Assembly: GCF_000939975.1 (NCBI RefSeq)
Contig: NZ_LK391969.1
Coordinates: 248,001 to 312,000 of the forward strand
Direction: 5' to 3'
Source of the DNA: Pseudomonas saudimassiliensis
GTDB taxonomy: Bacteria > Pseudomonadota > Gammaproteobacteria > Pseudomonadales > Pseudomonadaceae
DNA: 64,000 bases
In this document: in pieces, positions 23,447-26,783 of the stretch
How positions within the stretch are numbered: position 1 is the first letter of the stretch
Layout: each line of letters opens with the position of its first letter
Notes under the pieces: model-generated
The model's database searches: none
Told to the model about the DNA's origin: nothing
Seen by the model: the letters and a program-made list of their open reading frames with translations, nothing else
Made by a program: the position numbers and the translations under genes

Positions 23447-24949
23447 ATGAGCGAACAACCGCTGAATGAGCATGCACTGCAAGAGGAAGAAAACAGTCTG
23501 ATCGCGCTGCGCAAGGAAAAACTTGCCGCTGAGCGCGCCAAGGGCCAGGCCTTCCCCAACGATTTCCGTCGCGACAGCCTGGCGGGTGATCTGCAGAAGC
23601 AGTATGCCGACAGCAGCAAGGAAGCGCTGGCCGACGCCGCCATCAAGGTCAAAGTGGCAGGGCGCATCATGCTCAACCGCGGTGCGTTCATGGTGCTGCA
23701 GGACATGAGCGGGCGCATCCAGGTCTACGTCGACCGCAAGGGGCTGTCCGCCGAGACCCTGGAGGCGATCAAGACCTGGGATCTGGGTGACATCATCGCC
23801 GCTGAAGGCACGCTGGCGCGTTCCGGCAAGGGTGACCTGTATGTGCACATGACCGCGGTCCAGCTGCTGACCAAGTCCCTGCGCCCCCTGCCGGACAAGC
23901 ACCACGGGCTGACCGACACCGAGCAGCGCTACCGACAGCGGTATGTCGACCTGATCGTCAACGAGGAGGTGCGCGATACCTTCCGCGTGCGCTCCCAGGT
24001 GATCTCGCATATCCGCCGCTTTCTCAGCGAGCGGGGCTTCCTGGAAGTGGAAACCCCGATGCTGCAGACCATCCCAGGTGGCGCTGCGGCCAAGCCCTTC
24101 GAGACCCATCACAACGCGCTGGACCTGCCCATGTTCCTGCGTATCGCCCCGGAGCTGTACCTCAAGCGCCTGGTGGTGGGTGGTTTCGAGAAGGTCTTCG
24201 AGATCAACCGCAACTTCCGTAATGAAGGCGTTTCCACCCGGCACAACCCCGAGTTCACCATGCTCGAGTTCTACCAGGCCTACGCCGATTACGAAGACAA
24301 CATGGACCTGACCGAGGAGCTGTTCCGCGAACTGGCCCAGGCGGTGCTCGGCACCACCGATGTGCCCTATGGCGACAAGGTGTTCCATTTCGGTGAGCCC
24401 TTTGCCCGGTTGTCGGTATTCGACGCGATTCTCAAGTTCAACCCCGAGCTCAGCGCGGATGACCTGAAGGATGTGGACCGCGCCCGGGATATCGCCAAGA
24501 AAGCCGGGGCCAAGGTGCTCGGCCATGAGGGTCTGGGCAAGCTGCAGGTGATGATTTTTGAAGAGCTGGTCGAGCACAAGCTGGAACAGCCGACATTCAT
24601 CACCCAGTACCCCTTCGAAGTCTCGCCGCTGGCGCGCCGCAACGACCAGGATCCGAACGTGACCGATCGTTTCGAGCTGTTCATCGGTGGCCGGGAAATT
24701 GCCAATGCCTACTCGGAGCTCAATGACGCCGAGGACCAGGCCGAGCGCTTCCACGCCCAGGTGGCGGAGAAGGATGCGGGTGACGACGAAGCCATGCATT
24801 TCGACGCTGACTTCGTCCGCGCGCTGGAATACGGCATGCCGCCCACGGCCGGTGAAGGCATCGGCATCGACCGTCTGGTGATGCTGCTGACCAACTCGCC
24901 GTCGATCCGTGATGTCATCCTGTTCCCGCATATGCGGCCTGAGGTCTGA
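23447..24949 (+). CDS. lysS: Lysyl-tRNA synthetase, class II
   Basis: A 500-residue class II aminoacyl-tRNA synthetase. The N-terminal OB-fold anticodon-binding domain spans about 60-175 ([17 protein letters not shown]). The catalytic domain has motif 2 ([29 protein letters not shown]) and motif 3 ([26 protein letters not shown]). It charges tRNA-Lys with lysine. ACAGAGAAATG supplies a modest ribosome binding site. It follows prfB by 65 bases and is likely co-transcribed. The large inverted-repeat element at 24988 starts 38 bases after its stop and may end the transcript. Confidence 0.96.
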
Positions 24950-24987
24950 TCGGAAGTAGTTTGGCATTGAGTTTGTGTTTTGTGCGG

Positions 24988-25156
24988 GGAAAGCGGATCA
25001 AGCCTGGTTGGTGAGGTGGCGGGGTCGGGTTCGGCCTATATGGGACACGCGGCAAGTACATCCATGTAGCTCGCGGTTGCCATCCCTGGCAACCGACGGT
25101 CCCACATAGGCCGAACCCGACCCCGCTTGTATAGTCCGTGCAATGATCCGCTTTCC
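24988..25156. repeat. Large inverted-repeat element A: conserved core flanked by self-complementary arms
   Basis: Nested inverted repeats: an outer 13-base arm (24988-25000) matches 25144-25156 exactly in reverse complement, and an inner 27-base arm (25019-25045) matches 25100-25126 at 26 of 27 positions. Between them lies a core of about 58 bases that includes GGTTGCCA-TCCC-TGGCAACC (25075-25094), itself a hairpin. The same core occurs inverted in element B at 25328-25386, while the arms of A and B are unrelated. As RNA it would fold into a very strong stem after lysS. No coding capacity was seen. The 147 bases between the two elements (25157-25303) show nothing recognisable. Confidence 0.8.
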
Positions 25157-25303
25157 GGATAATTGGGAGTGGCTGTCGGTTTTTGGGTTGTCGCGCGCCT
25201 GCGGGACGACAAGGTGCGATCAGTGGCAAGTTCGCCAAAGGGGTAGCGTGGTTGCGCTAGCCCGGGCACGCCGGAAACATTGATCCACACTGAGGCTTGC
25301 GAG

Positions 25304-25410
25304 CCGGGTCAGGTGCCACCCAGGCCAGACCGTCGGTTGCCAGGGATGGCAACCGCGAGCCTACAGGGATGTATTCACGGCGTGTCTGGACTGGGTGGCA
25401 CCTGATCCGG
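25304..25410. repeat. Large inverted-repeat element B, inverted copy of the core of element A with different arms
   Basis: Arms 25304-25330 and 25384-25410 are reverse complements at 25 of 27 positions. The core 25328-25386 aligns to the reverse complement of the element A core with roughly 85% identity by eye, including the TTGCCAGGGATGGCAA hairpin. The arm sequence (CAGGTGCCACCCA) has no similarity to that of element A. The element ends 90 bases before the DUF1704 gene. Confidence 0.8.
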
Positions 25411-25499
25411 CCACTCCACAGCCCAGCCAGATCAATGTTTCCCTGCACGGCCCGGCAACCAGCACCAGACAGCAGCAACAGACAACAGGAAGACTCAAC

Positions 25500-26783
25500 A
25501 TGGCGGTAAAACAGAGCGAGCAGTACCAACTGGTTATCCGCAGCCTGTCGGACCGTATTGTTGACGCGCAGGCGCCGATTCGGGTGCTGGATGCCATCAA
25601 GTGGGATGACAACATCCGCGACCAGTTCTTCCGCGACGGTTGCCGTAAGCTGCCAGACGTGGGTCCGGACTACTACAAGGGCCGGCCGCTGAGTTTCGAT
25701 CCAGCCGAGCGCCTGCAGGTATTCCAGGATATCGAGCGGGATATTACCCGTCAGCTCGGTACCTTCAACCCGGTCGGGCAGATCATGCGGCGCATGTGCC
25801 GTGAATACCGCATGGTGCTGCGCATGATCGAGGGACGGGGCACTGCCGAGTTTGGGCGCATTTCCCAGGAACTGTATGGCTCGGCTTCCGACGCCTTCCA
25901 CGCTGGCGACCCGACCATCACCGATCTGGGCATCATGCTCAGCGAATCCCTGAGCAATATCGGCAATGACCTCGGCCATGAACCCAAGACCATTGCCGCG
26001 CCCGAGGCGGTGGCGATCCTGCAGGAGCAGATGAACACGGTTTTCACCGATGACCAGGCGGTGCGGGTGTTCGAGTCTGACGGTATCGTCGCCGATGCTG
26101 CCGCCGGGGCTGACTACATCAAGATCCGCAGTGATGCGCTGTTCAACCAGCGTGACCTGAAGATCCTCGCCGTTCACGAGGGCATGGTGCATGTGGCGAC
26201 CAGCCTCAATGGCCAGCACCAGCCGATCTGCACCTTCCTGGCCAAGGGGCCGCCGTCGTCCACCGTGACGCAGGAAGGCCTGGCGATCTTGATGGAGATC
26301 GTTACCTTTGCTTCCTATCCATCCCGTCTGCGCAAACTGACCAACCGCACCCGGGCCATCCAACTGGCGGAAGCCGGCGGTGATTTTCTCGATGTGTTCG
26401 GTTTCTATCGTGGCGAAGGCTATAGCGACGAGGCCAGCTATACCAATGCCAGCCGGGTATTTCGCGGCTCCAGCAGCGACGGTTTGCCCTTTACCAAGGA
26501 TCTGGCCTACCTCAAGGGCTTTATCCTGACCTACAACTATATTCAGCTGGCGGTGCGCCAGGGCAAGCTGCAGCAGATTCCCCTGCTGTTCTGCGGCAAG
26601 ACCACCCTGGAAGACATGCGCACCCTCGGCCAGCTGGTGGAGGAGGGTCTGGTGGTGCCGCCGCGCTATCTGCCCGAACCCTTCGCCGATTTGAACGCGC
26701 TCAGTGCCTGGATGTGTTTTTCCGGGTTCCTGACCAATCTCAGTCTCGATCGCATCGAGGCTGATTACGCCAATATCCTCTAG
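25500..26783 (+). CDS. DUF1704 (QEGLA-motif) putative metallopeptidase
   Basis: A 427-residue protein of the DUF1704 family, annotated elsewhere as flavohemoglobin expression-modulating QEGLA motif protein. It has HEGMVH at 226-231, which fits the HExxxH zinc motif of the MATCAP/KIAA0895-type peptidases, and TQEGLAILME at 257-266 with the third candidate ligand E259. I infer a zinc-dependent peptidase; the substrate is unknown. ATG 25500 follows ACAGGAAGA at good spacing. The small membrane protein gene begins ten bases after the stop, so the two may be an operon. The usual ATP-grasp or kinase partners reported for some family members are not seen here. Confidence 0.8.
   Translation: MAVKQSEQYQLVIRSLSDRIVDAQAPIRVLDAIKWDDNIRDQFFRDGCRKLPDVGPDYYKGRPLSFDPAERLQVFQDIERDITRQLGTFNPVGQIMRRMCREYRMVLRMIEGRGTAEFGRISQELYGSASDAFHAGDPTITDLGIMLSESLSNIGNDLGHEPKTIAAPEAVAILQEQMNTVFTDDQAVRVFESDGIVADAAAGADYIKIRSDALFNQRDLKILAVHEGMVHVATSLNGQHQPICTFLAKGPPSSTVTQEGLAILMEIVTFASYPSRLRKLTNRTRAIQLAEAGGDFLDVFGFYRGEGYSDEASYTNASRVFRGSSSDGLPFTKDLAYLKGFILTYNYIQLAVRQGKLQQIPLLFCGKTTLEDMRTLGQLVEEGLVVPPRYLPEPFADLNALSAWMCFSGFLTNLSLDRIEADYANIL

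Follow-up and report, generated by a model that had tools for sequence, protein, structure and literature searches.

The gap between lysS and the next gene downstream raises the question of what kind of element lies there twice, with one shared core and two different sets of arms. In the 64,000-nucleotide stretch of DNA analysed here (the window), lysS is followed by a MATCAP-type gene whose family, PF08014, we take to be the one named DUF1704, and the gap between the two genes holds elements of 169 and 170 nt (A and B) in opposite orientation. Each element is nested, with a 13-nt outer inverted repeat, a gap of 17-18 nt, a 28-nt inner arm and a core of 52-53 nt, after which the parts return in mirror order. 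We refer to the two strands of an element by the trinucleotide in its hairpin loops, as the GGA strand and the TCC strand.

Layout of the two elements

The features of the locus, in order of position, are as follows.

23447..24949, plus strand: lysS, the upstream neighbour (PF00152, E 2.9e-95)
24988..25000, unstranded: left terminal inverted repeat of element A, GGAAAGCGGATCA, 100% complementary to 25144-25156
25019..25046, minus strand: inner arm of element A, 3' side of the stem when read as RNA of the minus (GGA) strand (repeat search and fold)
25057..25068, minus strand: hairpin 1 of element A, UACAUGGAUGUA, with an ANGGAN-type loop (pattern match at 25057-25069, compared with the SELEX consensus given in PMC7652899)
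25074..25095, minus strand: hairpin 2 of element A, CGGUUGCCAGGGAUGGCAACCG (hairpin-2 pattern search)
25099..25126, minus strand: inner arm of element A, 5' side of the stem (repeat search and fold)
25144..25156, unstranded: right terminal inverted repeat of element A, TGATCCGCTTTCC (inverted-repeat search)
25157..25272, unstranded: spacer from element A to element B
25273..25285, unstranded: left terminal inverted repeat of element B, GGAAACATTGATC (inverted-repeat search)
25303..25330, plus strand: inner arm of element B, 5' side of the stem on the plus (GGA) strand (repeat search and fold)
25334..25355, plus strand: hairpin 2 of element B, CGGUUGCCAGGGAUGGCAACCG (hairpin-2 pattern search)
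25362..25373, plus strand: hairpin 1 of element B, UACAGGGAUGUA (pattern match at 25361-25373)
25384..25411, plus strand: inner arm of element B, 3' side of the stem (repeat search and fold)
25430..25442, unstranded: right terminal inverted repeat of element B, GATCAATGTTTCC (inverted-repeat search)
25500..26783, plus strand, start putative: MATCAP/DUF1704-type gene, the downstream neighbour (PF08014, E 3.8e-126)

The original prediction had described two elements with a common core in opposite orientation and near-perfect self-complementary inner arms, and the repeats were found as described: the 28-nt arms are 96% complementary in A (25019-25046 / 25099-25126) and 93% complementary in B (25303-25330 / 25384-25411). 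The second, outer pair that had been reported for A is perfect over its 13 bases (24988-25000 / 25144-25156), and B has a perfect 13-nt outer pair too (25273-25285 / 25430-25442), which was absent from that account. Both outer repeats start with GGAAA. A target duplication no longer remains at either element, the flanks being GCGG/GGAT for A and CGCC/CTGC for B.

Folding with ViennaRNA gave -87.5 kcal/mol for the GGA strand of element A against -78.4 kcal/mol for its TCC strand, and -80.7 against -75.4 kcal/mol for element B. The folding energies of all four strands are 8.5 to 11.8 standard deviations lower than those of shuffled sequence, and the hairpin-2 pattern (at most three mismatches), expected 0.01 times in the window, was observed twice. 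We can therefore conclude that the elements are not a product of chance.

A repeat family in genome, genus and class

Hairpin 2 of the core recurs at 13 places in the 3.34-Mb genome when up to three mismatches are allowed. From 12 of these 13 copies we built a covariance model (R1), which matched at least 36 places in the genome at E < 1e-9, both window elements among them; for this count 150 of 2634 candidates were scored, and 12 of the 36 places are the model's own seeds. At least eight facing pairs like the one in the window occur among the 36 places. Copy counts from the R1 whole-genome searches, in the own genome as in the genus, family and class, are lower bounds. With the own genome included each time, copies were found in at least 28 of 37 genus genomes, in at least 39 of 198 genomes of the family sample, and in at least 41 of 229 genomes of the class sample, where they cover at least 36 of 196 genera. 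The core is present in Halopseudomonas bauzanensis, H. xiamenensis, Pseudomonas sp. MYb185 and one Pseudomonas MAG. The scores of copies from the first three are identical to those of copies in G003, G033 and G025, all of the same genus as the window, which is therefore probably Halopseudomonas. A 58-nt consensus had no match in plasmid, phage and E. coli collections, a search whose sensitivity is limited by the short query.

We located 37 lysS loci and examined 30 of them for R1 matches and arms (L110 to L113 in part for arms). An R1 match was present at 18 of the 30, from which it follows that the A/B pair is old at this locus. In the lysS gap of element-free genus genomes (L100, L102, L103, L108, L113, L114 and L118) another repeat is found, in clusters resembling AAGCTTGAAGCTTGCAGCTGC. 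At the lysS locus of genome G022 (L121), A and B look fused at hairpin 2 and the DNA between them is gone, likely the product of recombination within the facing pair. A further palindrome resembling GCTGAGGGTTTTAAACCCTCAGC, variably degraded, was noticed by eye beside or between copies in the own genome (L005, L006, L009, L011 and L012); it is perhaps the end of another type of element.

Mobility and the structure of a MITE

Two sister genomes, G016 and G022, are 96% identical across 1400 nt ending in lysS. A comparison of empty sites in sister strains, which had been suggested together with the idea of a miniature mobile element, gave one clean case: G016 has an insert, from GGAAACACTGATTAA to TTAATCAGTGTTTCC, at a site that is empty in G022, and CTAA stands on both sides of the insert in G016 and once at the empty site. 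The stretches fetched from these two genomes contain 46 pairs of terminal inverted repeats (TIRs), with one site counted twice and a few orthologous. Identical 4-bp flanks were found at 17 of the 46, compared with 3.9 on average, and never more than 10, over 2000 reshufflings, and the flanks fit YTAR in 28 of 46 cases on the left and 26 of 46 on the right. A YTAR target is typical of the IS5 subgroup. TIRs at both ends, as expected of a miniature inverted-repeat element (MITE), are present in the window elements and in the 46 pairs, and the left TIR of element A lies where the TIR of the target-duplicated copies in G016 and G022 lies. Because the TIRs in those genomes come with 4-bp duplications and an empty site, the outer arms in the window are to be read as the worn terminal repeats of a MITE. 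The window elements are thus worn copies of a MITE of about 170 nt that is mobile by descent, as shown in the sister genomes, and in this sense the idea of a miniature mobile element was right. A pair of like ends 0.7-2.5 kb apart, as an autonomous element would have, was not seen in G016 and G022 (at most one mismatch, by eye).

TIR-bounded forms span 71-301 nt, and the hairpins are not always kept. The core is lost from forms of 71-79 nt. Longer forms, of about 250 and 300 nt, have an insert in the loop of hairpin 1, and in the 300-nt form there is one in hairpin 2 as well. At one site the form is short in G016 and long in G022 (L294 and L303). Among 15 further TIR-bounded loci, picked mostly for their odd length, the hairpin-1 loop is interrupted by an insert in eight (six sites), and two of these six sites retain identical 4-bp flanks; such copies therefore either moved in the inserted form or gained the insert later.

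Several of these variants are described here in their own right. A nested insert of about 78 nt with hairpins of its own sits in the hairpin-1 loop of L293, L295, L298, L299, L302, L303, L305 and L307 (G016/G022), and similar inserts occur in copies of L012 and L197. At L293 the flanks are identical (TTAA), so that the expanded form may be able to move. In L298, L305 and L119 a small insert occupies the hairpin-2 loop. It has, on the opposite strand, two extra hairpins with GGA loops, one of them CCGCCAKGGATGGCGG and the other a long stem with AGGA at its tip, and it may represent a second repeat family of CsrA type. At L107 (the lysS locus of G004), and in L294 compared with L303, the palindrome is gone and the outer repeats are left, that is, the MITE without its stem-loop. 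In genome G266, copies at L148 and L257-L260 have the T-shaped core within an apparent MITE whose ends differ (GCCATATCATTACC...), so that unrelated transposon ends may have the RNA module in common.

Inheritance and covariation of the arms

Among 12 aligned copies from the own genome, standard pairs fill 93.3% of the pair cells in the arms, compared with 67.6% after shuffling, and 25 of the 28 arm pairs show a change on both sides. The check proposed in the original prediction, namely a search for more copies with a conserved core and copy-specific self-complementary arms, was therefore positive. Arms from other gammaproteobacterial genomes are likewise almost completely paired; they are unlike the Halopseudomonas arms and vary in step among the copies within one genome. 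Both-sided changes were also seen between species at the lysS locus. For G016 and G022 we compared 15 orthologous copies, which remained from 17 supposed ones after removal of two (L198:4223/L229:5496 and L206:2096/L233:4724) that turned out to be different elements at the same place. Their 420 arm pairs include six both-sided Watson-Crick changes, where 0.47 would be expected if the two sides changed independently. Three of the six fall in a stretch of four nucleotides in one copy and could be a single event.

The excess of both-sided changes implies that the arms are inherited and then co-vary. The proposal that pairing, rather than arm sequence, is kept was in this way borne out at each level, that is, between copies, between species at lysS and within orthologous copies. 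That the arms are unrelated between copies was too strong as a general claim, because the arms form related subfamilies. The suggestion that arms arise anew at each insertion was not supported, since copies with intact ends in G016 and G022 largely share one arm sequence; on the same ground, the creation of arms by template switching at insertion was rejected as a general rule. The sole apparent fold-back event, a 77-nt perfect palindrome around element B in L101 (positions 1-205, genome G025), reaches the contig end exactly and is therefore probably an assembly artefact.

Strand asymmetry of wobble pairs

An A·C mismatch on the TCC strand corresponds to a G·U pair on the GGA strand. We compared both kinds of mismatch in 267 distinct copies, kept from 338 rows after leaving out 32 reverse-strand readings, 32 duplicates and 7 rows without TCC in the hairpin-1 loop. 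On the TCC strand, the arms of these copies have 347 AC and 75 GT mismatches; counted per copy, AC exceeds GT in 168, GT exceeds AC in 23, and the two are equal in 76. Within Halopseudomonas the excess of A·C is seen in both contig orientations and holds in all six gene contexts, and it persists if a given mismatch type enters the count only once for each arm cluster and column (85 to 193 versus 43 to 53). Elsewhere, four other genomes pooled gave 29 versus 10 distinct column/type events, a first sample of 30 other gammaproteobacterial copies gave a weak signal (13 versus 9), and the plus-strand copies of the pooled set from other Gammaproteobacteria gave no asymmetry (14 versus 13). One-sided changes in the 15 orthologous copies (10 AC, 5 GT and 1 other) show a modest asymmetry in small counts.

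As a control, we read the flanks of the 15 orthologous pairs, which are unpolarised, in the orientation of the element. The ratio of A/G to C/T changes was 49:39 within 100 nt, 172:141 within 300 nt and 440:428 within 800 nt, and these near-even values indicate that there is no strong strand-biased transition outside the element. In addition, the GGA strand is the more stable fold in 155 of 199 Halopseudomonas copies and in 51 of 65 others (ViennaRNA). The wobble signal is alike in copies whose GGA strand is sense to both neighbouring genes (70:14) and in those where it is antisense to both (73:12). Taken together, the strand-biased wobble, the even flanks and the stability of the GGA strand argue that the stem is apparently selected as a single strand. 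In the simplest reading of these sequence patterns, this single strand is probably the GGA strand as RNA. Folding of the GGA strand as single-stranded DNA could yield the same preference for G·U over A·C, and so could a mutation bias limited to the element, a source that the flank control does not address.

Hairpin loops and the CsrA/RsmA motif

On the GGA strand both hairpins read C-A-N-G-G-A-N-G, with the two N positions free and the outer stem pairs varying. The motif CANGGANG is present in hairpin 1 of 227 of 231 copies, a count in which GGA served as a filter and C, A and the closing G were unfiltered; in hairpin 2, where it was entirely unfiltered, it is present in 186 of 231 copies, the other 45 being without the full motif. 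The SELEX consensus of CsrA is RUACARGGAUGU, and RNAs bound by RsmE have an ANGGAN hexaloop (PMC7652899). Both hairpins have ANGGAN hexaloops closed by C-G that fit the consensus. The commonest form of hairpin 1, UACAGGGAUGUA, matches it, and this is the form in element B, where the fit starts at the second base of the consensus (PMC7652899). By sequence, then, both hairpin loops look like the CsrA/RsmA recognition motif.

A csrA gene was found in 194 of the 229 genomes of the class sample overall and in 37 of the 41 element bearers, so that across this sample the presence of csrA has no clear association with the element. The four bearers in which csrA was not found are G209, G270 and G301, which are 67-88% complete, and G396, which is 98% complete. 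In the available parts of the literature on CsrA, REP sequences, MITEs, Halopseudomonas and TwoAYGGAY, we found no description of a mobile CsrA-type repeat.

Relation to the TwoAYGGAY RNA

One source on the TwoAYGGAY RNA, PMC4333381, is presumably the paper by Gardner and Eldai from 2015. The family (RF01731, clan CL00106) was listed by Weinberg et al. 2010 (PMC2864571) and is predicted to bind CsrA (PMC4333381). Its Rfam model matches seven places in the own genome, three of them over the cut-off, and all seven are copies of the present family on the GGA strand; the three coincide with R1 matches of E 8e-20, 1e-17 and 4e-13, which lie on the opposite strand. In another genome, the element at L156 matches the whole model with 45.2 bits (cut-off 43). 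Across the class sample RF01731 was found in 14 of 229 genomes, in 12 of them over the cut-off. The two copies in the window had no match at the gathering threshold, nor one up to E 10 in 24930-25500. By sequence, A and B are therefore relatives of TwoAYGGAY through the repeat family and not members by Rfam's rule.

Other Rfam matches were seen. Those of microRNA models to the long stem were below the cut-off and were taken as chance. The Yersinia sRNA model Ysr224 gave 12 matches below the cut-off in 11 of 20 loci, all on the TCC strand (L140, L141, L143, L144, L148, L149, L151, L152, L155, L157 and L158), and it has a further such match at element B (25327-25425 of the window, minus strand).

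Gene context, proposed function and other explanations

Gene contexts were obtained by simple ORF/GC3 calling, in which errors are to be expected, and the counts leave out 8 Halopseudomonas copies close to the edge of a locus and 25 that fall within called ORFs. Among 166 copies, 49 have a GGA strand that is sense to both neighbouring genes and 51 have one that is antisense to both, while 54 copies lie between convergent and 12 between divergent genes; there is no orientation preference. This balance, together with the equal wobble signal in the sense and antisense contexts, means that read-through from host genes is not an obvious source of RNA. A scan of 24900-25560 gave no promoter- or terminator-like site.

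We consider it probable that the elements are worn MITE copies with a TwoAYGGAY-related RNA whose GGA strand is transcribed and serves as a decoy or docking site for CsrA/RsmA. The MITE, with its terminal repeat GGAAAN... and 4-bp YTAR target, would carry a T-shaped structured RNA as cargo. The GGA strand, which is the minus strand in A and the plus strand in B, would fold into a 28-bp stem capped by a three-way junction and two short hairpins, and both its transcription and its binding by CsrA are predictions. Once transcribed, the two hairpins would bind one CsrA/RsmA dimer, and the copies would act as small decoys or as local docking sites for CsrA. The long stem would hold the hairpins in place, with pairing as its sole requirement. 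As part of this probable explanation, the arms would diverge among copies because pairing alone is selected, drifting by way of G·U pairs and compensatory change while the loops and the junction remain constant. Weighing against this function are the lack of a promoter- or terminator-like site near the window copies, the missing orientation preference, the inserts that break the hairpin-1 loop at eight of the 15 further loci, and the four bearers in which csrA was not found, three of them with incomplete genomes.

The elements could instead be parasites at the level of DNA, in which the T shape is a single-stranded signal in transposition or lagging-strand replication (REP/RAYT, IS200/IS605-like), the loops are the mark of a transposase and the arms are complementary by template switching. 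G·T is tolerated better than A·C in DNA hairpins as well, which fits a reading of the GGA strand as single-stranded DNA. The equality of the wobble asymmetry in sense and antisense contexts agrees with this explanation, and the three clustered both-sided changes in orthologues are what one template switch would leave. TIRs with 4-bp target duplications, however, are typical of double-strand DDE transposases, and those found here point to that type. The forms of 71-301 nt, moreover, retain their TIRs and not always their hairpins. RAYT genes (NF047646) do not track the element: they were found in 34 of 37 genus genomes and in 8 of 9 element-free ones, and were not found in the element-bearing G004 and G006. 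An origin from RAYT/REP was rejected on this independence in the 37 genus genomes. CGTC, the tag of one REP superfamily, is found on the GGA strand at the 5' boundary of hairpin 2, but REP loops vary from family to family (PMC3733652), and in the present elements no part is more conserved than the loops. We therefore regard a parasite of this kind as unlikely.

A passive MITE, with a cargo that is a remnant without present function and a structure that is a by-product of its inverted-repeat origin, would account for the deletions and inserts in copies at several sites. It would also suit the lack of orientation preference and the 12 of 166 copies between divergent genes, as with neutral insertions that are tolerated downstream of genes. 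Yet unselected decay would not leave CANGGANG near-invariant with its Ns varying, and both the excess of G·U over A·C without a comparable bias in the flanks and the six both-sided changes against 0.47 expected would go unexplained, which makes this explanation a quite improbable one. The original prediction had also offered a family of strong terminators, and terminators or insulators that separate lysS from the gene downstream would agree with very stable hairpins (-75.4 to -87.5 kcal/mol), with the copies common between convergent genes (54 of 166) and with a T-rich tail after the arm in G266. Against this, the scan of 24900-25560 returned nothing terminator-like, no U-tract follows directly 3' of either window element, and the loops are too conserved; we give the terminator explanation hardly any weight.

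If the copies are expressed, the Csr/Rsm network would have been repeatedly rewired or buffered by transposition. A wider view is that transposition has spread tens of small CsrA/RsmA decoy RNAs, each placed independently, over gammaproteobacterial chromosomes. How strong Csr/Rsm regulation is in a species would then be set by how many copies of a mobile element it carries, and the orphan Rfam family TwoAYGGAY would be the known edge of this system; we put this view forward as a tentative and rather doubtful conjecture. The elements connect an orphan family of structured RNAs with a mobile element and, by the proposed binding, with a global regulator. Their hundreds of copies, in which the arms are free and the loops constant, form a natural alignment for reading the rules of CsrA hairpins. 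The strand-specific test of G·U versus A·C can be used on other palindromic repeats to tell single-strand from double-strand constraint.

Comparison with known systems

Decoy RNAs of the CsrB/CsrC/RsmX/Y/Z type have many sites within one sRNA gene. The present elements are like them in their ANGGAN hairpin loops closed by C-G, predicted to bind CsrA/RsmA dimers, but differ in having two sites per unit and many dispersed units, with no promoter or terminator found near the window copies. REP/REPIN sequences and the CGTC-tagged repeats of Di Nocera et al. 2013 (PMC3733652) are likewise short palindromic intergenic repeats, often in facing pairs and rare between divergent genes, and CGTC is found here at one hairpin. 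The elements described here are larger than these repeats (as given in PMC3733652), have three helices with conserved loops and variable arms, and have MITE-type ends without a link to RAYT. With bacterial MITEs as reviewed in PMC10969869 they share a size of about 173 nt, terminal inverted repeats and a 4-bp target duplication; the difference is their conserved RNA module, which has relatives in an apparent MITE with other ends (G266).

The likeness to TwoAYGGAY lies in two A-N-GGA-type hairpin loops on the same strand and in an external stem that 'is not well conserved' (PMC4333381). Here, in contrast, the external stem is strongly covarying and not merely unconserved, which suggests that the stem of TwoAYGGAY-like elements is free in sequence and bound in pairing. 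Dozens of copies per genome, MITE ends and target duplications, all found here, are absent from the available parts of the accounts of TwoAYGGAY (PMC2864571, PMC4333381). Altogether, the locus contains a MITE carrying a TwoAYGGAY-like RNA. It is real and old at its place behind lysS, descends from a mobile element and belongs to a large family.
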